Below, piece by piece: positions 10,495 through 21,576 of a DNA stretch of 64,000 nt. The notes under the pieces were generated by a model. That model was not told the origin of the DNA. It saw nothing but the letters and a program-made list of their open reading frames with translations, and did no database searches. A program made the translations under genes and the position numbers. How positions within the stretch are numbered: position 1 is the first letter of the stretch; the number at the start of each line of letters is the position of its first letter. Source of the DNA: Methanomicrobiales archaeon (GTDB lineage Archaea; Halobacteriota; Methanomicrobia; Methanomicrobiales; Methanospirillaceae); the NCBI GenBank assembly GCA_025350045.1, contig JANXYM010000030.1:1-64000 (forward strand), in the 5' to 3' direction.

Positions 10495-11505
10495 TCACAG
10501 TTTGATTCGTGCAAATTCCACGAATTGGATTCCTTTAGAATGTACAGCGCCAAACAACATCTTCTTTTTGACACTGTGCGCCATCCGGACCGAGCGCGAG
10601 ATTGCGCTCATGGGGAGAGCGGTATCATTCTCCACCGCATGTACCAGCAGGTCGGAATGCACGTTCTTGCCGCAGTACACCCGGAAGTGGTGGCCGAATT
10701 TGTAGCCGGTTCTTGGGGTATAATCATGCGACCGGAGTTCCGTGTACACCTTGTCCTTCTCTGCCAGTTCCGAATCATTCTCCCGGACCAGATCAAAAAA
10801 CTCCGGGGTGCTGACCTGGACATCTCCTCTCTTAAGCTCGACAATGCCTTTTCCCATGAGATAGAGCAGTTCAACCGAAGAGAGCATGAGCCGTTCATCA
10901 TCCAGGCGTTTACCAAAACCCGCGGTCTCAAGATCGGACGGGGGACTGATCCTGACCATGCCGGATTTTCCGATCAGTACAGCTTCATGTTTCGTCAAGG
11001 GGGTCAGCGGCGTACAGGCATCTGCCAGCACCTGCAGCTTGATCTCGTAGTAGGTGAGTTCCTCTTCGTCATCGACAACCGCAAGAACATACTGTTTGCG
11101 CATATTGCGGGACGCGACCACTTCTTCGATCAATTTGGTAAACCGGATGGGATCGCGTTCCGAGAGCACGCGGACCAAATAGAGGGATTCGCCGGTGCCG
11201 GGTTTCTCACCGCGCCGGAAGACCCGGAAATCGTGCGGGCCGGTCTGCACCACATACCCCCGCTCGCGGAGATCACGGTATACCATAAAACTCCTCAGGA
11301 AATTGGGTTCATTTGCGAACTCTGAAAACAGGGAATCGAACGTATAGCCGTCTAAGGCGATCTTCTGGCGGTGGATGAGATAGAGCGCTTCCTGGGGTGC
11401 AAGTTTCACGCCATCCTTTTCCAGGCGCCCGTACCCGCTCTGCTCATAGAGCACGCGCCCGTCCTTTCCCACCCGCACCGAAGTGCCGTCTAATATCGCC
11501 TTCAC
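10495..11505 (-). CDS. endA: tRNA-splicing endonuclease
   Basis: Two-repeat EndA architecture; catalytic region RTGYKFGHHFRVYCGKNVHSDLLVHAV. Confidence 0.92.
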   Translation of the reverse strand: MKAILDGTSVRVGKDGRVLYEQSGYGRLEKDGVKLAPQEALYLIHRQKIALDGYTFDSLFSEFANEPNFLRSFMVYRDLRERGYVVQTGPHDFRVFRRGEKPGTGESLYLVRVLSERDPIRFTKLIEEVVASRNMRKQYVLAVVDDEEELTYYEIKLQVLADACTPLTPLTKHEAVLIGKSGMVRISPPSDLETAGFGKRLDDERLMLSSVELLYLMGKGIVELKRGDVQVSTPEFFDLVRENDSELAEKDKVYTELRSHDYTPRTGYKFGHHFRVYCGKNVHSDLLVHAVENDTALPMSAISRSVRMAHSVKKKMLFGAVHSKGIQFVEFARIKL

Positions 11506-11793
11506 TACCGGATATATTGTGTGTACGTGATAATAAGGGCACGCCGAACGCCCCGCAGGTTTCTGCGCGGTTGGTAAACTGCTGAGCGAAATCCTTATGA
11601 ATTACATAAATTTGTTTCAATGGCTATAAAAGGGGTAAATTCCAATATGTATAGTCAGATCGTATCTCATAAGTACGCTTATTTGCACGTCCCCGCGGGT
11701 GAATCTCATTCCGGGAAATTATGGGTAATACTATAAGATTGATCGATCATCCACACCGGAATCATTTAACAGCCATTAAAACGCGGCGGAAAA

Positions 11794-12435
11794 ATGAAGG
11801 TGCATATAACCAACGACCCTGGATGCCGACGAAAGAGCATGATCAAGCTTGCAGGTTTTCTGGCACGCTCATCAGCAAACGGACCCGGCATCCGGTCCGT
11901 CGTATGGGTGCAGGGATGCCCCATCCATTGCGAGGGCTGTTTCAACCCGCAGTTTTTGCCATTCTCTTCCTCACAGCAGGTTACCCCTTCCGCACTGGCC
12001 GACAGGATTTGTGCACTCGAACCTGTCGATGGAGTTACATTTTCGGGAGGCGAGCCGTTTGCACAGGCAGATGCCTTGGGCGAACTCGGTGAACGGTTAC
12101 AGAACCGGGGCCTCTCGATTGTCACGTTCACCGGATTTTCTCGCGAACGCGTCCTCAGGTCAACCCGTCCCGCATGGCAGCGCCTCCTCGCGGTCACCGA
12201 TCTCCTGATTGCCGGCCCCTATATCCCATCCCTGAAATGCGATACCCCATGGATCGGTTCATCGAACCAGCGGATCATCCCGCTCACGGATATTATTACC
12301 CTGCCCGATTCCCGTTCCCCGGATTCCGGGCATGTTACCGAGTTCACGATACATACCGATGGTACGCTCACTGCCACCGGGTTTCCCGATGGGCAGTTTG
12401 TCAAAGCGCTTGCAGACCGCTGCAGGGAGGGATGA
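11794..12435 (+). CDS. 4Fe-4S single-cluster radical SAM protein (NrdG/activase-like)
   Basis: RSVVWVQGCPIHCEGCFNPQ (CxxxCxxC) and GVTFSGGEPFAQ; probable start Met at 11839. Confidence 0.85.
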   Translation: MKVHITNDPGCRRKSMIKLAGFLARSSANGPGIRSVVWVQGCPIHCEGCFNPQFLPFSSSQQVTPSALADRICALEPVDGVTFSGGEPFAQADALGELGERLQNRGLSIVTFTGFSRERVLRSTRPAWQRLLAVTDLLIAGPYIPSLKCDTPWIGSSNQRIIPLTDIITLPDSRSPDSGHVTEFTIHTDGTLTATGFPDGQFVKALADRCREG

Positions 12436-12442
12436 CCGCATC

Positions 12443-12841
12443 ATGTCGCACTTCAGCCGCATCCGCACCCGGTTCCGTCACCGTGAAGCCCTGATCCAGT
12501 GTCTTGAGGAGTTGGGCCACACGGTCGAAACGGATACTACGATTAAGGGGTATAACGGGCAGCATACCGTTGATATTGCCGCAAAACAATCCGATGGCTA
12601 CGGGGTGGGCTTTGTGAAGAACAGCGATGGCACCTACGATATGGTTGCCGACTGGTGGGGAGTGACCGGCACCGGCCAGAAAAAGATCGCAAACGAACTG
12701 AAGCAGCAGGCAGAGACGATCCAGAAAGAGTACGCGAGGAAGATGGTGCTGGAACAGGCAGCAAAGGACGGTTTTGAGGTAGTGTCGCAAACGAATGAGG
12801 CGGACGGGACAATGCGGATTATCGTGCGGAGGTGGACTTAA
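12443..12841 (+). CDS. DUF1257 (Ycf35-like) protein
   Basis: MSHFSRIRTRFRHREALIQCLEELGHTVE...DIAAKQSDGYGVGFVKNSDGTYDMVADWWGV. Confidence 0.85.
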   Translation: MSHFSRIRTRFRHREALIQCLEELGHTVETDTTIKGYNGQHTVDIAAKQSDGYGVGFVKNSDGTYDMVADWWGVTGTGQKKIANELKQQAETIQKEYARKMVLEQAAKDGFEVVSQTNEADGTMRIIVRRWT

Positions 12842-12845
12842 GACC

Positions 12846-14405
12846 ATGAAACACAAGGAACCGGATTTTGCCCGAAAACTGAATGTCTCCCTCCGGGCCC
12901 GGGTTACCCTTATTGTCGTCATGACCCCGGAAGAAGAGCGGGTAGTGGCACAGGTAAAAGGGGTCTGTGAGAAATGGGAACCACCGCGCCAGTGCATAGC
13001 CTGGGACAGTGTGGACGGATTTTCCGTAGTCTGCGGAAACTCCGGTTTTCTTGCCCAGTCGCGCGATCCGCTCACTGCCCTTGACGATATGGCCAAGACC
13101 GACGACAATGCGGTGATCCTGCTCAAGGACTTCCACGAGTTCTGGAATAACCCGCAGGTGAAACGCAAGATCCGCAACTTCTCCCAGAAGTTCAAATACA
13201 GCCGGAGGACGATGGTGATCATTACCCCGGTACAGCGCGTGCCGGAGGAGATCCGTGACGAAGCAGTTCTCATCCACTTCCCGCCTCCCGGAACACCCGA
13301 ACTCTCAAAAGAACTCGACACTCTCCTTGCAACGAGCGGGATTACCAGTTCACTCTCTGAAGCCGGCAGGGAAAAACTGATCCAGGCCGCACTCGGCATG
13401 ACCCTTAACCAGGCCCGTCGCTCGTTCTCCCGGGCAATTGTAACTCATGGCACGCTCGATGATCGGGATATAGATGCCATCATTGCCGACAAGAAAGATG
13501 TGCTGAGCCAGTCGGATGCACTCGAATTCTACAGCCTTACGGAAAATCCCGACAATGTCGGCGGTCTTGCCCAGTTAAAGGACTGGCTCCGGCTCCGGGA
13601 GCGGGCATTTACGCAGGAAGCCCGGGACTACGGCCTCCCGGCCCCAAAAGGCATTGCCCTTATCGGTATTCCCGGTACGGGAAAGAGCCTGACGGCAAAG
13701 ATGATAGCCGATCTCTGGCACCTGCCCCTGCTCAGGCTCGATGTGGGTGCCCTGTTCGGGAGCCTCGTCGGAGAGTCCGAAGAGCGGACACGACGGGCCC
13801 TTTCCCTTGCCGAAACGATTGCGCCATGCATCCTCTGGATTGACGAGATAGAAAAAGCATTTGCATTCGGGAGCGGCGATGCCGGTACCAGCCAGCGGGT
13901 ATTTGCCCACCTGCTCACCTGGATGCAGGACAAGACCGCTCCCTGTTTTGTGGTGGCAACAGCCAACAACATTGCCGCACTCCCACCCGAACTCCTGCGC
14001 AAGGGACGGTTTGATGAGATATTCTTCCTCGATCTGCCTAATATTGAAGAGCGCCGGGAGATCTTTTCTGTACACTTAAAGAAGCGCAAGTGCCTGCCTG
14101 TCGAATATTCCTTAGATTTGCTCGCAAAGGAGAGCGAAGGATACGTGGGTGCCGAGATAGAACAGACAGTGATCGATGCGATGTACCTTGCGTTCAATGA
14201 AAATATGCGCAGGGTCACAACTGATGACATCCTTGGCTGCATGAAAACGCAGGTGCCGCTTGCAATCTCCCAGCGCGAGACGGTTGCCGCACTGCGGGCC
14301 TGGCTTGCCGAAGGGAGGGCGATCTCCGCATCGCGGGTTGCACCGGAACGGGTTCCTGCCGGGCGGACAATCGCACTGGAAACTTTTGACAGTATTCCCA
14401 CGTGA
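12846..14405 (+). CDS. Ycf46-like AAA+ ATPase
   Basis: Walker A GIPGTGKSLTAK, Walker B CILWIDEIEKAF, GRFDEIFFLDLPNIEERREIF; N-terminal Ycf46-like region. Confidence 0.87.
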   Translation: MKHKEPDFARKLNVSLRARVTLIVVMTPEEERVVAQVKGVCEKWEPPRQCIAWDSVDGFSVVCGNSGFLAQSRDPLTALDDMAKTDDNAVILLKDFHEFWNNPQVKRKIRNFSQKFKYSRRTMVIITPVQRVPEEIRDEAVLIHFPPPGTPELSKELDTLLATSGITSSLSEAGREKLIQAALGMTLNQARRSFSRAIVTHGTLDDRDIDAIIADKKDVLSQSDALEFYSLTENPDNVGGLAQLKDWLRLRERAFTQEARDYGLPAPKGIALIGIPGTGKSLTAKMIADLWHLPLLRLDVGALFGSLVGESEERTRRALSLAETIAPCILWIDEIEKAFAFGSGDAGTSQRVFAHLLTWMQDKTAPCFVVATANNIAALPPELLRKGRFDEIFFLDLPNIEERREIFSVHLKKRKCLPVEYSLDLLAKESEGYVGAEIEQTVIDAMYLAFNENMRRVTTDDILGCMKTQVPLAISQRETVAALRAWLAEGRAISASRVAPERVPAGRTIALETFDSIPT

Positions 14406-17212
14406 GCGGTATGAAGTATTCCGTTTCTGCCCCCCTCATAGGCCCCTGGCTGTACCGGTGTTCGGTTAAGGAACTCGGAGCCCGGGTACAACAGGGTGAT
14501 GCAGCGGCTGTCCGGAATCTTGCCGGTATTTTTTGTACATCCCGTGATGAGGCTGCGCGGGATATTGCCCGTAAAACACTCTGCTCCCTCGTCGCACCTC
14601 CTGCCATAGAAACTCTCTGCAGAGAAGCGCTGGAGCGGGACGATGCAACATTACACAGTATCGCAACCGAAAGGAATTACCAGATCTCTGATCCCGGAAT
14701 GCAGGCGCTATTCCTCTTCGTTACGCGGCAACAGGAACGATATGCCCAACTGGACTATTTGGTGCATCGTCCGCTGCTTGCTTCTGGCTACAATCAGGCA
14801 ACTAACCGGGTCAGGTTTCACGCCCGCAATGCGGCAAAAAAGAGCGGTCAGTACCCGGTTCTTGCAGCGGCACTCATGGAAAACGATCGGAACGGAAATC
14901 CAGCCCTTTGGTCTGAAGAGGAATGGGAGATTGTAGTAACCGGTCTGGTTCAGGAACGGCAATGGGAAGCTTTGTGGCGGCTCGTCGTTCATGCACCCCT
15001 GCATCTCGTGGTAACTGCCATATCTGCAATGGACGCAGGAGGGTGGAAACCGCCCGGTGATGAACGGGTATACTGGGAAGAACTCATCCTTGCTATGCCC
15101 GGGAGATGGACCTGCCCGGTACCGGAGGATATTATATCAGCTCCATCGTGGAATCCGGACAGCCAGCCTCTGCGTCTTGCTTTTTCAGGAGATGGCGCTA
15201 TGCTTGCTGCCGCGTGTGCAGACGGGACCCTGTGTCTCTGGAATACCCGTACTGGAACCCTTGTCTTCCGGCTCCCTTCAGGTCAGAGCACTATTCGCGG
15301 ACTTGCCCTGTCACCCGACAGTACCCGCATGCTCAGTACAGGAACGGACGGAACACTCCAGTGCCGGGACACCCTGACGGGTGCCCTGCTCTGGTCAGTT
15401 GCAGCGGATGAGGGAACTCCGGTGCAGTTTGCCTGTTCCCGGAACGGGCATGCAGTAGTCCCCCGGAGTTCGGGGGGGCGTCTCCACATCGTGAACATGG
15501 CAAATGGAGAGAAACAAACATTTTCCGGGGGGAATGAAGCAGCAGTAACCTGTTGTGCACTCTCTCACGATGACCGGATATGTGCCGTGGGATATGCTGA
15601 CGGGGCGGTGGGATGCTGGGATTTGCAGAAAACACATTACCTGCGGACGCTGGATGGTCTCGGGGATCCGGTCCGTGTGCTCTCTTTTTGCGAAAACAAT
15701 GATGAGTGCGTTGTGATTTATGACCGGAACCGGCCTACCAGATGGCGAATTACGTCCGGGGAGCGCACCAGAACATATACCGGTAATAAAAGTCTGTTGC
15801 GGTGTTGTTCCATAACTCCGGACGCAAGCTCGTTTGCAATCGCGGGAGATGAACGTATACTCAGGTTCTGGCTGGCAGGGAGAGCTGCTCCCATTTCAGA
15901 GATCCCTCTCTATAATCGCCCGCTTACGGCTTGTGCAGTATCTGATGACAGCAGGTCTTTTGTTGCCGGGTGTTCTGAGGGGACCCTCCGCATATATGCC
16001 ATGAACGAGGGGACAATGCTCCACGAAAAAAAAGCGCACAAACAAGCAGTGACAGCGATTGTCGTATCCTCATCAGCCGGCATATTCGCAAGCGCTGGCG
16101 GTGAAGGGGGGGTAAAACTCTGGAATGCAACTTCAGGTGAACTGCTCCGCACGCTTCTGCGCCCTGCGGGAGGAGTGACCGGGTTAACGGTTACACCTGA
16201 TGGTTCTTCGATCTATGCCGGGTATGCAGACGGTACGGTCAGGCAGATTCCAAGGGGTATGGGAGCATTCAACCGGACGCTCGATATGTACACGAGCACC
16301 GTCCGGGCGATTGCCATTTCCCACGATGGAACCCTGCTGGCCTGCGCCGGAGGCGATACTACCCTGCGGATATGGAATAGTGAAACCGGGGAGCTTGTCA
16401 CCGGCATTGAAGGATCCACTACCACCCAGCGCTGCCTCGCATTTTCACCAAACGGAAAGACACTTGTCTCCGGGGGCTGGGACGGGAAGGTGCGTGTCTG
16501 GAATGTTCCGGATGGCAGCCTTAAAAGAACTCTCACCGGCCACACCAGTATAATTACCGTTCTGGCGATCACACCGGATGGCACCCTGCTCGCAACCGGC
16601 AGCAATGACCGGAGCGTCCGGCTCTGGACTCTTTCCGATGGCCAATGCCTATCAGTACGGGAAGATTCCCGCAGCGAAGTGAGCGCACTGGCACTGTCGT
16701 CAGATGGAACGCTGCTCGCTTTTGCGGGTGCGGATGAGATTATCCACCTCTGCCACCTGCCGGATGACACACAGGCCCCGGCAATTCCCGCACTTCCGGG
16801 AAAGATCACAGCACTTGCCTTTGCAGGTGACGGACGGGTACTGGTGGCCGGATTCGACACGGGAACTGTTGCAGTCTTTTCCTGTGCAGGACGACACCTG
16901 CTGCGGACGGTGACAGCCCATACAGCAGGGGTAACCGGGATTGCAACTCTTGCCGGAGAGGATTCGGTACTGACCGGGGGGCTCGACGGGCTGGTGCGGC
17001 ATACGAACCTGCCCTGGACCCGGCCACTCTCCGGAACAACTCTCAACGATATCCCGTTCGTCGCCCGGTACGCAGGCACCTGCTCCCGTCCGGATGCACA
17101 GGCCCAGTGGACATTTCTCCATCGTATGCTCACCGCACGGTTTAGAAACGATATCGAACTTTGTACTGACATCAATGACGAAAGCATGTATGATATCCAG
17201 ATTGTCGGGTGA
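14402..17212 (+). CDS. WD40-repeat protein with alpha-helical N-terminal region, 936 aa
   Basis: Many WD40 blades (e.g. GHTSIITVLAITPDGTLLATGSNDRSVRLWTL); GTG start overlaps the upstream TGA, alternative ATG at 14411. Confidence 0.9.
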   Translation: MSGMKYSVSAPLIGPWLYRCSVKELGARVQQGDAAAVRNLAGIFCTSRDEAARDIARKTLCSLVAPPAIETLCREALERDDATLHSIATERNYQISDPGMQALFLFVTRQQERYAQLDYLVHRPLLASGYNQATNRVRFHARNAAKKSGQYPVLAAALMENDRNGNPALWSEEEWEIVVTGLVQERQWEALWRLVVHAPLHLVVTAISAMDAGGWKPPGDERVYWEELILAMPGRWTCPVPEDIISAPSWNPDSQPLRLAFSGDGAMLAAACADGTLCLWNTRTGTLVFRLPSGQSTIRGLALSPDSTRMLSTGTDGTLQCRDTLTGALLWSVAADEGTPVQFACSRNGHAVVPRSSGGRLHIVNMANGEKQTFSGGNEAAVTCCALSHDDRICAVGYADGAVGCWDLQKTHYLRTLDGLGDPVRVLSFCENNDECVVIYDRNRPTRWRITSGERTRTYTGNKSLLRCCSITPDASSFAIAGDERILRFWLAGRAAPISEIPLYNRPLTACAVSDDSRSFVAGCSEGTLRIYAMNEGTMLHEKKAHKQAVTAIVVSSSAGIFASAGGEGGVKLWNATSGELLRTLLRPAGGVTGLTVTPDGSSIYAGYADGTVRQIPRGMGAFNRTLDMYTSTVRAIAISHDGTLLACAGGDTTLRIWNSETGELVTGIEGSTTTQRCLAFSPNGKTLVSGGWDGKVRVWNVPDGSLKRTLTGHTSIITVLAITPDGTLLATGSNDRSVRLWTLSDGQCLSVREDSRSEVSALALSSDGTLLAFAGADEIIHLCHLPDDTQAPAIPALPGKITALAFAGDGRVLVAGFDTGTVAVFSCAGRHLLRTVTAHTAGVTGIATLAGEDSVLTGGLDGLVRHTNLPWTRPLSGTTLNDIPFVARYAGTCSRPDAQAQWTFLHRMLTARFRNDIELCTDINDESMYDIQIVG

Positions 17213-18831
17213 CCATGACGCAGAACGACCATCCCGCAGGAACCGGCAGGCAGCGTCTGGGCGTGGATTTTTGTACAGGAAACACCGTTGTAGCCATGCG
17301 GGATGAGAGTGGTGTGATCCATCTTCAGGATTTCCCCGGCTGGTCCCGCCCCTTTCCCTCGGGTGTACGGGAACGTCCAGTCCCCCGAGTCCCGTCACAA
17401 ATCCTGTACAGCGATACTGGCACCCGTTCCATCGGGGCTGCCGAACTACCGGATGGCACGAAGCCTGCCGGGGTGGCACGAGGGCTGCGCTACTACATCC
17501 TTGAGAACAGCACGGTGCAGGTACCAGCGGGTGGTGGGTGTATGAAAGGGTACAGGAACGCAGGATCCGATTTCCTTACCGCACTGCTTACCCATGCACC
17601 CTGCAATAGCACGGGCACCGCTGAAGTGGTGTTCTCCGTTCCGGTTGATGCTCCCTGTCAGTATTCCGCATGGCTTCGTGCCGTGGCAATGGTAGCAGGG
17701 TTCCGTGTCCCGTTCGTGATCGATGAACCCTGTGCCGCTGTTGCAGGATATGGCCTGTACCTTTCCCCCGGGGCGCTGTTCCTGTTGATCGATTTCCATG
17801 CCGATGGCCTCGATATTTCTCTCATCACCCAGGAAGAATTCTCTGATGATACCAGAGGCATCTGTTCACACATACTCGGCAATATGCATGATAACACCGG
17901 GGGATTGGGGATAGACGGGTGGATTGTCCAGGATGTACTGAACCGTAACCGGCTGGATGAAACCGATTCCCGGGTAGCCCCGATACTCCCTCTTATCAGA
18001 TTCGAAGCAGGGAGGGTCCGGGAAGCGCTGGTTCTGGACAGGGAAGTTATGGTTCAGGTTGCCGACCCGGTTTCAGGATTTTCTTTAAGGGCACTGGTCA
18101 GCAGATCCGATCTCTGCCGGATCCTTGAGGAGAGGGGACTGTTTGTTGCCATTAACCGCGCATTTGACCGGGTGCTGTCTGCTGGAGGCATACGGGGCGA
18201 GGGGGAAGAGCGTATCGAGGCTGTGCTTATGATTGGTGAGTGCAGTGCGATTCCCTGCATCCAGGATGCAGTCAAACAGCGGTGGGGGCCAAAGGTTCAT
18301 TGCAATCATCCGGTGGATGCGATTGCCCGTGGCACTGCCATGGCAAATCCAAAAAACCCGGAATCCAACCGTATCAGGAACGATTACGCCATCCGTCACT
18401 GGGATCCTGGTGCCCGGGAATACCGGTACCGGTTTATTGTAAGAAACGGTGCCCGCTATCCGAGTGCCGGGCAGGTTGCACGGTTTATCATCAGCGGCGC
18501 CTATGACGGACAAGCATACCTGGGTATCCCGCTCTGTGAGATCAGCACCGCAGGTCACGACCCGCATGGTCACATAGAACTGGTCTCAAATGACAGGGGG
18601 GGAGTGCAGATTGCCGGGCCCGCACCCGATCCAATACCAGCAATGCGTCCGGTAGTAGTAAACGAGTCAGAGCCTACATTACTTCACGCATCACCCCCGG
18701 CACAGAAAGGCGAACCGCGGTTTGAACTTACGTTTTTTCTTGACCGTCAGGGATACCTTTGCCTCACGGCACGGGACCTGCTGACCGGTCTGCTCGTAAA
18801 ACAGGATACACAGGTATTCAGGCTGAATTAA
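17209..18831 (+). CDS. divergent Hsp70/DnaK-like actin-fold ATPase
   Basis: GVDFCTGNTVVAM phosphate-1-like motif, VPSQILY, FVIDEPCAAVAGYG, C-terminal SBD-like beta region ending LTARDLLTG; start GTG 17209 overlapping upstream stop or ATG 17215. Confidence 0.82.
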   Translation: MTMTQNDHPAGTGRQRLGVDFCTGNTVVAMRDESGVIHLQDFPGWSRPFPSGVRERPVPRVPSQILYSDTGTRSIGAAELPDGTKPAGVARGLRYYILENSTVQVPAGGGCMKGYRNAGSDFLTALLTHAPCNSTGTAEVVFSVPVDAPCQYSAWLRAVAMVAGFRVPFVIDEPCAAVAGYGLYLSPGALFLLIDFHADGLDISLITQEEFSDDTRGICSHILGNMHDNTGGLGIDGWIVQDVLNRNRLDETDSRVAPILPLIRFEAGRVREALVLDREVMVQVADPVSGFSLRALVSRSDLCRILEERGLFVAINRAFDRVLSAGGIRGEGEERIEAVLMIGECSAIPCIQDAVKQRWGPKVHCNHPVDAIARGTAMANPKNPESNRIRNDYAIRHWDPGAREYRYRFIVRNGARYPSAGQVARFIISGAYDGQAYLGIPLCEISTAGHDPHGHIELVSNDRGGVQIAGPAPDPIPAMRPVVVNESEPTLLHASPPAQKGEPRFELTFFLDRQGYLCLTARDLLTGLLVKQDTQVFRLN

Positions 18832-18848
18832 AAGGAGGAGAGAGAAAA

Positions 18849-19052
18849 ATGACTATGCAGGAAGTGGAAATTACGATCGACAACGAAGGCCGGGTACGGG
18901 TTCATGTCAACGGGGTTAAGGGAGAGGAATGCCTCGCACTGACAAAAAATCTTGAGAACGCAGTAGGAGAAGTACAGGAACGGTCCTTATCTGCAGAATA
19001 CTACGAGCAGCCGGTTGAGGTTTCCCAATACCAGAAAGCCGGTCTGCGGTAA
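18849..19052 (+). CDS. DUF2997 small protein
   Basis: MTMQEVEITIDNEGRVRVHVNGVKGEECLALTKNLENAVGEVQERSLSAEYYEQ; strong RBS AAGGAGG upstream. Confidence 0.82.
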   Translation: MTMQEVEITIDNEGRVRVHVNGVKGEECLALTKNLENAVGEVQERSLSAEYYEQPVEVSQYQKAGLR

Positions 19053-19111: not shown

Positions 19112-20158
19112 TTAGCAGAAATTCTCGGTTATGTATATTTTGTTATCCGAAGAGAATGAAACACCTATTCCTTCCAACTGGTACCGCGTAGTGAGGATAT
19201 TCTGGCGGTGGCCGGGGCTGTTCATCCACCCGGTGACAGCCCGCTCGGCAATATCATCAACCGAACTCCAGTTATATGAGGTGATGATTCCCCCGGCATT
19301 GGAATAGTACGAGTCATAGCGGTTTCCCTGGTAGAGGTTTTCCGAGATGCCATTATACGAACCTCCTTTGACTACCCGGATACAGGGATAACCCGCAGCA
19401 AGACCACGGTCCCTCGCCAGCAGACCGTCAGGGTTTATATGCTCAAAGAAGTTCCGGGTCACCATATCCCAGCTGTGCCCCCGCGCAATATCGGCGAGGA
19501 ACGGATCGTAGGAGAGGGAAGAAAGTCCGTTCTGCCCCCGCTGGACATTGATGAGTTCGTGGACGCGCCCCTCCAGAGCAGCAGGATCGATATAGGGCGC
19601 TCCCGGGGTGCTGCTGGTTAAGGAACTGGAAGGGGGCTGCGGGGGGACCTGCGTTACTGCAAGAGTGATGACCGAAGTTGGTTCTGCGGTAGGTTCCGCA
19701 GTTGACACGGCTGTAGTCGGGGTTGGGGGGGGCATTCGTGTAGTTGTCGGCACCGGGGTTGAAGGAGTCGTTGACGGAAGGGAAGTTGGGGCAGGAGTCG
19801 TTGCGGAAGGTACGTTTTCCGTAGCCACGGCAGTGACTGCGGTACCGATCGTGGAGATAGGGGTCACACCCGGTAGTGGCGTGCCGGTCTGGGATTGCGG
19901 GAGAGAAGTACGGTCTCCTGCACCAGTCACCTGCGCGAAGTACGGGAGCAGGAGAATGGCTGCAACACCAAGGATAAGAATACCGGCGAGGACAAAACCC
20001 CAGACCGGAATACCGGTGCCGGTGGCAGGACCGGAGGTCGGATTCCCCGGCGCTACTGCAGGGGCCGTATCCGGAATTGGTGCACCACAACCGGTGCAGA
20101 ACTTCTGGACTGAGAATTCCAGCGCTGCACCGCACTTGGAACAGAATCTCCGGGCCAT
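19112..20158 (-). CDS. zinc-ribbon, TM, Thr/Pro-linker, CAP/SCP-domain protein
   Basis: RFCSKCGAALEF...FCTGCGAPI; CAP core HELINVQRGQNGLSSLSYDP...GWMNSPGHRQNIL. Confidence 0.87.
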   Translation of the reverse strand: MARRFCSKCGAALEFSVQKFCTGCGAPIPDTAPAVAPGNPTSGPATGTGIPVWGFVLAGILILGVAAILLLPYFAQVTGAGDRTSLPQSQTGTPLPGVTPISTIGTAVTAVATENVPSATTPAPTSLPSTTPSTPVPTTTRMPPPTPTTAVSTAEPTAEPTSVITLAVTQVPPQPPSSSLTSSTPGAPYIDPAALEGRVHELINVQRGQNGLSSLSYDPFLADIARGHSWDMVTRNFFEHINPDGLLARDRGLAAGYPCIRVVKGGSYNGISENLYQGNRYDSYYSNAGGIITSYNWSSVDDIAERAVTGWMNSPGHRQNILTTRYQLEGIGVSFSSDNKIYITENFC

Positions 20159-20203: not shown

Positions 20204-21043
20204 TTACCCGGCCAGTTCCCGCACTTTGGCAATATTCCCGCGATCATCCCGCCGGTCATCAACCGGGGTCTCGCAGACCTGTGGCAGATCCTTAAATGCC
20301 GGATGATGCAGGATGCGCCGGAAGCCCTCCTCACCAATGAAACCCATGCCGATATGCTCGTGCCGGTCAAGCCCGCTTCCCTTATCGCCTTTCGTATCGT
20401 TCAGGTGCACGACTTTAAGATTCCTGATCCCCACCTGTTCATCGAACTGTGCAAGCGTATCTGCGATACCCTCATCAGACCTCAGTTCGTAGCCAGCAGC
20501 GAACGCATGGCAGGTATCGAAGCAGATGCCAATCCGCTCCGGTACATCAAGTCCGTCCATGATCCCCCGGATGTGCTCAAAACTGCTTCCAACGCTGTTC
20601 TTTTCACCCGCAGTGTTTTCAAGGAGCAGCATAACAGAATTATCTGATCCGTCAATGGCAGTGTTAATCGCCTCAATTACCCGCGCCCGCCCTCCGGCAA
20701 TGCCATCGCCGAGATGGTGGCCGAGATGCGTGACCAGATAGGGAATTCCCAGTTTTCCGCAACGGTCAAGTTCTTCTGCAAGGGCTGGAACGGATTTTTC
20801 ATAAATCTCCGGTTTGGGCGAGGCCAGGTTCGGCAGGTAGGGCATGTGATCAACGGGAATGATGCCGGTTGCCCTGATCTTTGCCCGGTAGACAGCACAA
20901 TCCTCATCGGACAGCAGTTTGTATCCCCAGCCCCGCGGATTCCGGGAGAACTGCTGGAAGACATCGCAGCCTGCATCCTTTGCCCTATCCACCGCGAGAT
21001 CGAGAGAGCCTGCGATTGAAACATGAACACCGACTGTTACCAT
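20204..21043 (-). CDS. nfo: endonuclease IV (AP endonuclease)
   Basis: VGVHVSIAGSLDLAVDRAKDAGCDVFQQFSRNPRGW, RIGICFDTCHAFAAGY; start chosen inside ORF 20204..21223. Confidence 0.92.
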   Translation of the reverse strand: MVTVGVHVSIAGSLDLAVDRAKDAGCDVFQQFSRNPRGWGYKLLSDEDCAVYRAKIRATGIIPVDHMPYLPNLASPKPEIYEKSVPALAEELDRCGKLGIPYLVTHLGHHLGDGIAGGRARVIEAINTAIDGSDNSVMLLLENTAGEKNSVGSSFEHIRGIMDGLDVPERIGICFDTCHAFAAGYELRSDEGIADTLAQFDEQVGIRNLKVVHLNDTKGDKGSGLDRHEHIGMGFIGEEGFRRILHHPAFKDLPQVCETPVDDRRDDRGNIAKVRELAG

Positions 21044-21081
21044 GGCACACCGTTTTGTATGCATTCTGGTTCGAAGGGGAT

Positions 21082-21576
21082 CTATGATAAGGTTGTGATC
21101 GAACCGATGGACAGAGAGAACATGAAAGAAAAAATCACTACGGGAGATCCAGATCTTCTTTTTTGATGAGTTACCGCCGCACGCTGCATGAGGATACCGG
21201 AGCGGGAACCAAACTGGCTGCATTGTGCATCTGCCCGAATCTCCCCACTGCTGCCTTTCAACTGAGGAAGATTATACCGGTAGGTGAACGATGACCGGTC
21301 CGGCTGGCTGGTGTAGGTCTTGTCAATGAGCACGGTATCACCCTGCTTTACCGTTACCTGTTTTACATAATGCGTTGTAGGATCGTCTACCTGGTGGGTG
21401 ATAGTGACAATGAGATCTCCGGTGTCCGGATCATACGTCACTGCTGCATCTGACGGAGGATGCGCAAGAGCACCGCCGCTCAGCACAACAAGGCTGACCA
21501 GTGCCAGAACGAGTGCCCGTACCAGAAATGACAGGTGCTGTAACTGCACTCGGGAAGGAAGTGAATTATTCTGCAT
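21082..21576 (-). CDS. hypothetical exported protein
   Basis: Signal peptide followed by Ig/SoxZ-like beta-rich segment. Confidence 0.6.
   Translation of the reverse strand: MQNNSLPSRVQLQHLSFLVRALVLALVSLVVLSGGALAHPPSDAAVTYDPDTGDLIVTITHQVDDPTTHYVKQVTVKQGDTVLIDKTYTSQPDRSSFTYRYNLPQLKGSSGEIRADAQCSQFGSRSGILMQRAAVTHQKRRSGSPVVIFSFMFSLSIGSITTLS

Follow-up and report, generated by a model that had tools for sequence, protein, structure and literature searches.

The window analysed here (the whole 64,000-nt stretch, positions 1 to 64,000 of contig JANXYM010000030.1 from a Methanomicrobiales archaeon) contains a cassette of six co-directional, tightly packed genes, listed with neighboring features in Table 1. 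From the first gene to the sixth, the intergenic distances are 7, 4, -4, -4 and 17 nt. The two 4-nt overlaps (AAA/WD40 and WD40/Hsp70) hinge on GTG starts; with the in-frame ATGs given in the table they become gaps of a few nucleotides. The first-pass annotation, made from the sequence alone, had named all six products and noted an AAGGAGG ahead of the DUF2997 gene. Coordinates, strand and Pfam matches all agree with it, each protein being assigned to its claimed family rather than an unrelated one, and the AAGGAGG was located. A putative promoter precedes the cassette, and the gene on its far side is divergent. No RNA was found in an Rfam scan of the cassette region.

Table 1. Coordinates of the cassette genes, their motifs and flanking features in the window.
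Feature	Position	Strand	Evidence and remarks
endA (tRNA splicing endonuclease-like, by sequence reading)	10495-11505	-	left boundary of insertion site; synteny, empty sites
candidate archaeal TATA-type promoter GGCTATAAAAGGGG	11620-11640	+	by eye; putative
radical SAM protein (NrdG/PFL-activase type, Fer4_12)	11794-12435	+	Pfam Fer4_12 1.1e-30; alternative start ATG 11839
radical SAM, CX3CX2C	11917-11940	+	
radical SAM, SGGEP	12043-12057	+	
DUF1257 (Ycf35 family), conserved N-terminal M-S-H	12443-12841	+	Pfam 1.1e-23; alignment n=29
Ycf46-type AAA ATPase	12846-14405	+	Pfam AAA 2.5e-31 plus AAA_lid_3; alignment
AAA C-terminal domain, Walker A	13665-13688	+	
AAA C-terminal domain, Walker B	13830-13847	+	
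AAA C-terminal domain, arginine-finger region	13998-14015	+	
large WD40 beta-propeller protein	14402-17212	+	many WD40/beta-propeller Pfam models; possible start ATG 14411
Hsp70-like protein, SBD-beta-like C-terminus	17209-18831	+	Pfam HSP70 4.9e-9; possible start ATG 17215
Hsp70-like, degraded motif DFCTGNT	within 17260-17289	+	
Hsp70-like, degraded motif IDFHADGLDI	within 17785-17817	+	
Hsp70-like, degraded motif GECSAIP	within 18226-18261	+	
AAGGAGG ahead of DUF2997	18832-18838	+	
DUF2997, 67 aa	18849-19052	+	Pfam 2.9e-17; alignment n=23
DUF2997, invariant Gly and Cys (GEECLALT)	18921-18944	+	
CAP-domain-like gene (by sequence reading)	19112-20158		between cassette and nfo; relatives only in some Methanoregula loci
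nfo (endonuclease IV-like, by sequence reading)	20204-21223	-	right boundary of insertion site

Both small proteins score well above the Pfam gathering cut-offs: 83.9 bits against 22.2 for DUF1257 (PF06868), and 62.7 bits against 24.1 for DUF2997 (PF11211). The AlphaFold model of DUF1257 has a pLDDT of 80 and no PDB match at E<=0.001; a START/Bet v 1-like fold was considered and dismissed, the matches being weak (E 0.27-1.5). The predicted model of DUF2997 is poor (pLDDT 64), and nothing useful was found when the profiles of the two families were compared with the sequences of solved structures. In the WD40 protein, the N-terminal ~230 aa have no Pfam match and look HEAT-like by eye, as in the Pseudanabaena homologue.

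Ycf35 and Ycf46 are long-standing 'hypothetical chloroplast' families. The cassette AAA protein is 45-48% identical, over nearly its full length, to chromosomal cyanobacterial proteins of the type of Ycf46 (slr0374), the comparison being with those proteins and not with a named Ycf46 sequence or profile; in the AAA tree, however, they form a clade of their own, separate from the cassette AAA, and they stand without the other components. Its nearest solved structures are CDC48/p97, and its N-terminal domain has no Pfam match. The key residues of the motifs GIPGTGKS, ILWIDE and RKGRFD are invariant across 11 aligned sequences, and with these motifs intact the window protein is predicted to be catalytically competent.

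The radical SAM protein has the cluster motif CPIHCEGC, and its CX3CX2C and GGE motifs are conserved throughout the archaeal set. It scores slightly below the cut-off for Pfam Radical_SAM (25.6 against 29.5 bits), and its best NCBIfam match, NrdG (TIGR02491), also lies below threshold (91.9 against 126.1 bits). A plain NrdG serving the genome's ribonucleotide reductase was ruled out on that score, and because the genome encodes a second, separate NrdG2-like radical SAM protein (L103, by sequence reading). The class III ribonucleotide reductase itself seems split in this genome (G000, L100, L101; C31:9902-11617 and C51:18590-18730): a 728-aa NrdD frame has no glycyl-radical motif at its end, and RVTGYLQDVSGWNAGKQQELKDRTRYSVA stands at the end of a separate zinc-ribbon protein of 126 aa.

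The archaeal survey covered the window's phylum alone; DUF1257 occurs in 8 of its 197 genomes, all 8 within the window's family. The order radical SAM-DUF1257-AAA-WD40-Hsp70-DUF2997 is identical in the 7 other DUF1257-bearing family members, one locus (L012) being cut by a contig end; the named loci from the genome collection belong to Methanoregula and Methanolinea. In nearly all archaeal loci the cassette lies between nfo and endA-trpS-pheS (all four named by reading their sequences); the flanks differ in L010, and only one side is visible in L012. Three family members without DUF1257 (L185, L186 and L187) have empty sites, with nfo and endA adjacent and 93-250 nt apart. Since the same six genes stand in the same order in other genera of the family, the cassette is not a chance cluster, an explanation that the rearranged bacterial loci described below also rule out.

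Within the cassette, the components diverge at very different rates. Compared with three Methanoregula relatives (L009, L013 and L020), identity is 79-84% for the AAA protein, 65-69% for DUF1257, 49-55% for the radical SAM protein, 38-40% for the WD40 protein and 39-42% for the Hsp70-like protein. Housekeeping proteins of the same genomes give 84-86% (PheS), 86-88% (TrpS) and 74-77% (EndA), and the AAA protein is close to these. By these identities, the presumptive motor is under constraint and the putative binding parts are diverging. In a quick AAA tree with some long rows, the 11 archaeal proteins form one clade (support 100) that joins four Sporomusaceae-type proteins (99); when the tree is rooted on the chromosomal cyanobacterial proteins, this combined clade is nested in otherwise bacterial diversity. 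The simple reading of this nesting is a single transfer: the cassette appears to have entered the archaeal family on one occasion, and its nearest relatives are in Sporomusaceae.

A scan with the AAA alignment returned at least 80 loci, which were annotated by home-made profiles iterated once. At least 21 non-archaeal loci (two of them plasmid loci found via DUF1257, L016 and L018) hold at least four of the six families, in an order that varies by lineage; they come from Bacillota, Chloroflexota, Planctomycetota, Verrucomicrobiota, Actinomycetota and other phyla. AAA, DUF1257 and DUF2997 are each present in all 21, radical SAM in 20, WD40 in 19, Hsp70 in 17 and a GrpE-like gene in 7. Of the 20 bacterial loci with a radical SAM gene, 17 have it directly beside DUF2997, and the two genes often overlap by 4 nt. 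On a Pseudanabaena plasmid the order is grpE-Hsp70-DUF1257-(two other genes)-DUF2997-AAA-WD40. The first-pass annotation had presented the combination as one found in a methanogen; with the same components spread across many bacterial phyla, it is not special to methanogens.

Among 26 non-cyanobacterial genomes selected for this AAA clade, 25 also have DUF1257, and in several it lies away from the AAA gene. Unselected samples contain it in 5 of 199 genomes of Levilinea's class and 20 of 246 of the planctomycete phylum, nearly all of these matches having DUF2997 adjacent; AAA is also present at most or nearly all of those in Planctomycetota. AAA, DUF1257 and DUF2997 thus make up a smaller core, which recurs in Planctomycetota, and the remaining genes are its extension. 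In three loci of the Planctomycetota survey (L170, L172 and L173), the core triad is accompanied by a different radical SAM-like protein (k1), and by a membrane protein, a TPR protein and a PilT-like ATPase (by sequence reading). A rumen Anaerolineaceae genome has genes for EcoRI endonuclease and EcoRI methylase between AAA and DUF1257 (L042:11591-13450); in the related L043, DUF1257 follows AAA directly.

The retention of the same set in bacterial loci despite rearranged order indicates that the components work together. With family-level synteny in archaea and shuffled order in many bacterial phyla, the six genes almost certainly constitute one functional unit, and the first-pass proposal of a single machine, which a lack of conserved synteny in other genomes would have contradicted, is strongly supported.

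The first-pass annotation also raised a conflict system. In such an immune or conflict system, propeller and Hsp70 would sense invaders and the AAA protein would drive an effector. Patchy distribution, transfer between phyla, fast divergence of WD40 and Hsp70, a plasmid copy, the EcoRI restriction-modification pair within one locus and thematically similar MoxR-vWA and GTPase/HSP70/GrpE systems (PMC7159879) would all suit it. We nevertheless consider it very improbable: no conserved nuclease, protease or toxin component is present, the cassette keeps one chromosomal site across archaeal genera, and cyanobacteria and plastids retain its core families. PADLOC gave no system match, only IetA and HEAT-ARM matches that are due to shared AAA and WD40 domains. 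Defense as the main function has little in its favor. A mobile defense island was ruled out, the flanking genes being housekeeping and the site mostly fixed.

The match of the Hsp70-like protein to Pfam HSP70 (35.4 bits, cut-off 20.6) is confined to residues 160-378, and the phosphate-1, phosphate-2 and adenosine motifs are not intact (DFCTGNT, DFHADGLD and GECSAIP). Because these motifs are degraded, the window protein is probably not an ATPase, contrary to its initial description. That description also had it acting without DnaJ or GrpE. GrpE is indeed lacking in this lineage, and no J-domain gene was recognized in any of the cassettes, but the absence of GrpE is a lineage trait, since a GrpE-like gene (33.1 bits to Pfam GrpE where tested) directly adjoins Hsp70 in all 7 bacterial loci having both.

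All seven of these GrpE-bearing loci have intact Hsp70 nucleotide motifs. Degraded motifs occur only in GrpE-less loci, namely in Sporomusa and in several methanogens, the window among them; the motifs are intact in L010, L014, L022 and most non-Sporomusa bacteria. The association between GrpE presence and intact motifs (Fisher p = 0.02) is to be taken as a pattern, since the rows share ancestry and three state changes suffice on the AAA tree. Three archaeal loci without GrpE retain intact motifs, which suggests that GrpE was absent first and that motif decay came later.

Two genomic contexts bear on what the unit might do. In Sporomusales, DUF1257 occurs in 10 of 28 genomes, and the cassette directly follows cydAB in all 10; an Rrf2 gene precedes cydA in 8 of the 10, and CydDC-like ABC genes follow in some. 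This adjacency belongs to one lineage and possibly one event, and neither the archaeal loci nor most of the other bacterial ones were seen to have oxygen or Fe-S genes at their flanks. The other context is cyanobacterial: two loci (L177 and L178) have the order DUF2997-DUF1257-ferredoxin, which corresponds to DUF2997-ycf35-fed7, cluster g in PMC4284462. According to that paper, Fed7 binds both FTR and a DnaJ-like protein and is required under oxidative stress, metal stress and iron starvation. Two further papers describe plastid CDJ3/4, ferredoxin-domain DnaJ proteins that bind 4Fe-4S and HSP70B (PMC6006212), and slr0374/Ycf46, whose operon is induced by a range of stresses and whose loss affects the carbonic anhydrase EcaB (PMC7496141). 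No link of the cassette parts into one machine appears in the available parts of PMC4284462, PMC6006212 and PMC7496141. The redox- or Fe-S-linked chaperoning proposed initially is a possible role that fits the cydAB and Fed7 contexts.

The cydAB context could also point to a dedicated maturation factor. Like MoxR-type helpers, the cassette would then serve to activate or assemble a single enzyme, such as a radical, metal or terminal-oxidase complex, instead of acting in stress generally. The activase (NrdG/PFL-AE) type of the radical SAM protein and its pairing with DUF2997 would agree with such a role. We find it unlikely, however, because no shared enzyme gene accompanies the cassette across phyla, cydAB adjoins it in Sporomusales only and the window genome has its separate NrdG2-like protein.

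We infer instead that the six genes encode one ATP-driven, chaperone-type protein-remodeling machine. The Ycf46-type AAA ATPase would be its motor, with DUF1257 and DUF2997 as obligate small partners. The WD40 and Hsp70-like proteins (with GrpE in some bacteria) would form a client-binding and scaffold layer, in which the window Hsp70, probably no longer binding ATP, would serve as a binding subunit. The radical SAM protein would be an iron-sulfur arm, replaced in cyanobacteria by the ferredoxin Fed7; these are different proteins that may share a slot in the cassette. This arm would either sense redox state or modify DUF2997 at its invariant Gly/Cys segment, and the clients protected or restored under oxygen or redox stress would most likely be oxygen-sensitive or Fe-S proteins. 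We give an AAA-driven remodeling machine with a link to oxygen or Fe-S stress an even chance. The fuller version, a widely transferred, redox-regulated AAA/Hsp70-type machine with a Ycf46/Ycf35 core, switched on when the radical SAM protein modifies DUF2997, is unlikely to hold as a whole.

Modification of DUF2997 could alternatively be the purpose of the system, the radical SAM protein turning it into an active peptide or tag that AAA, Hsp70 and WD40 deliver or remove. The Gly and Cys invariant in 23 DUF2997 proteins, the adjacency and frequent overlap of the two genes and the radical SAM motifs preserved in the archaeal set are as this would predict; but DUF2997 is retained in core-triad loci without radical SAM, a ferredoxin takes that place in cyanobacteria and no precursor-like leader or export gene is present, which makes this reading quite unlikely.

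Several known systems resemble the cassette in part. Cluster g (PMC4284462) likewise has adjacent DUF2997 and DUF1257 with an Fe-S protein beside them and a chaperone link through Fed7-DnaJ, but it has ferredoxin for radical SAM and no adjacent Hsp70, WD40 or AAA in the two loci examined, the chromosomal Ycf46-type AAA being located elsewhere. The DnaK-GrpE system shares the Hsp70 family, an SBD-beta-like end and, in some bacteria, a GrpE-family neighbor, whereas the cassette has a weak HSP70 score, no recognized J protein and, in the window, lost ATPase motifs; the window genome also carries two ordinary DnaK loci. MoxR-vWA ternary and GAP1-N2 GTPase/HSP70/GrpE systems similarly combine, depending on the operon, a chaperone ATPase with a propeller, Hsp70/GrpE or radical SAM (PMC7159879), but the cassette AAA belongs to the classic CDC48/FtsH-like group with AAA_lid_3 rather than to MoxR. 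Pfam finds no vWA, MoxR or TRAFAC GTPase domain among the six proteins, and an effector gene is absent too.

Among the papers searched, none unites Ycf46, AAA, Hsp70 and WD40, and none combines Methanoregula with WD40. No description of the cassette turned up, and each known system compared with it differs in some defining feature; on these grounds we regard the cassette as new as a system. Its individual parts nonetheless come from known families, and the cyanobacterial subset is already documented as a gene cluster; with cluster g as the reference type, the cassette would count as a large new variant of it. The cassette points to likely partners of Ycf35 and Ycf46, namely each other, DUF2997, Hsp70/GrpE, a WD40 scaffold and an Fe-S protein. 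The complete gene set appears to have travelled together between bacteria and a methanogen family, and the GrpE-less clades offer a natural series in which the ATPase motifs of an Hsp70 decay.

DUF1257 also occurs in other settings. A scan of viral contigs with a single DUF1257 sequence gave no match. The cyanophages P-SSM2, P-SSM5 and P-SSM7 and uncultured marine viruses encode relatives that share 25-33% identity with the window protein. A plasmid of Treponema succinifaciens carries a DUF1257 protein (L017:8001-8408) inside a contractile-tail-like gene cluster.
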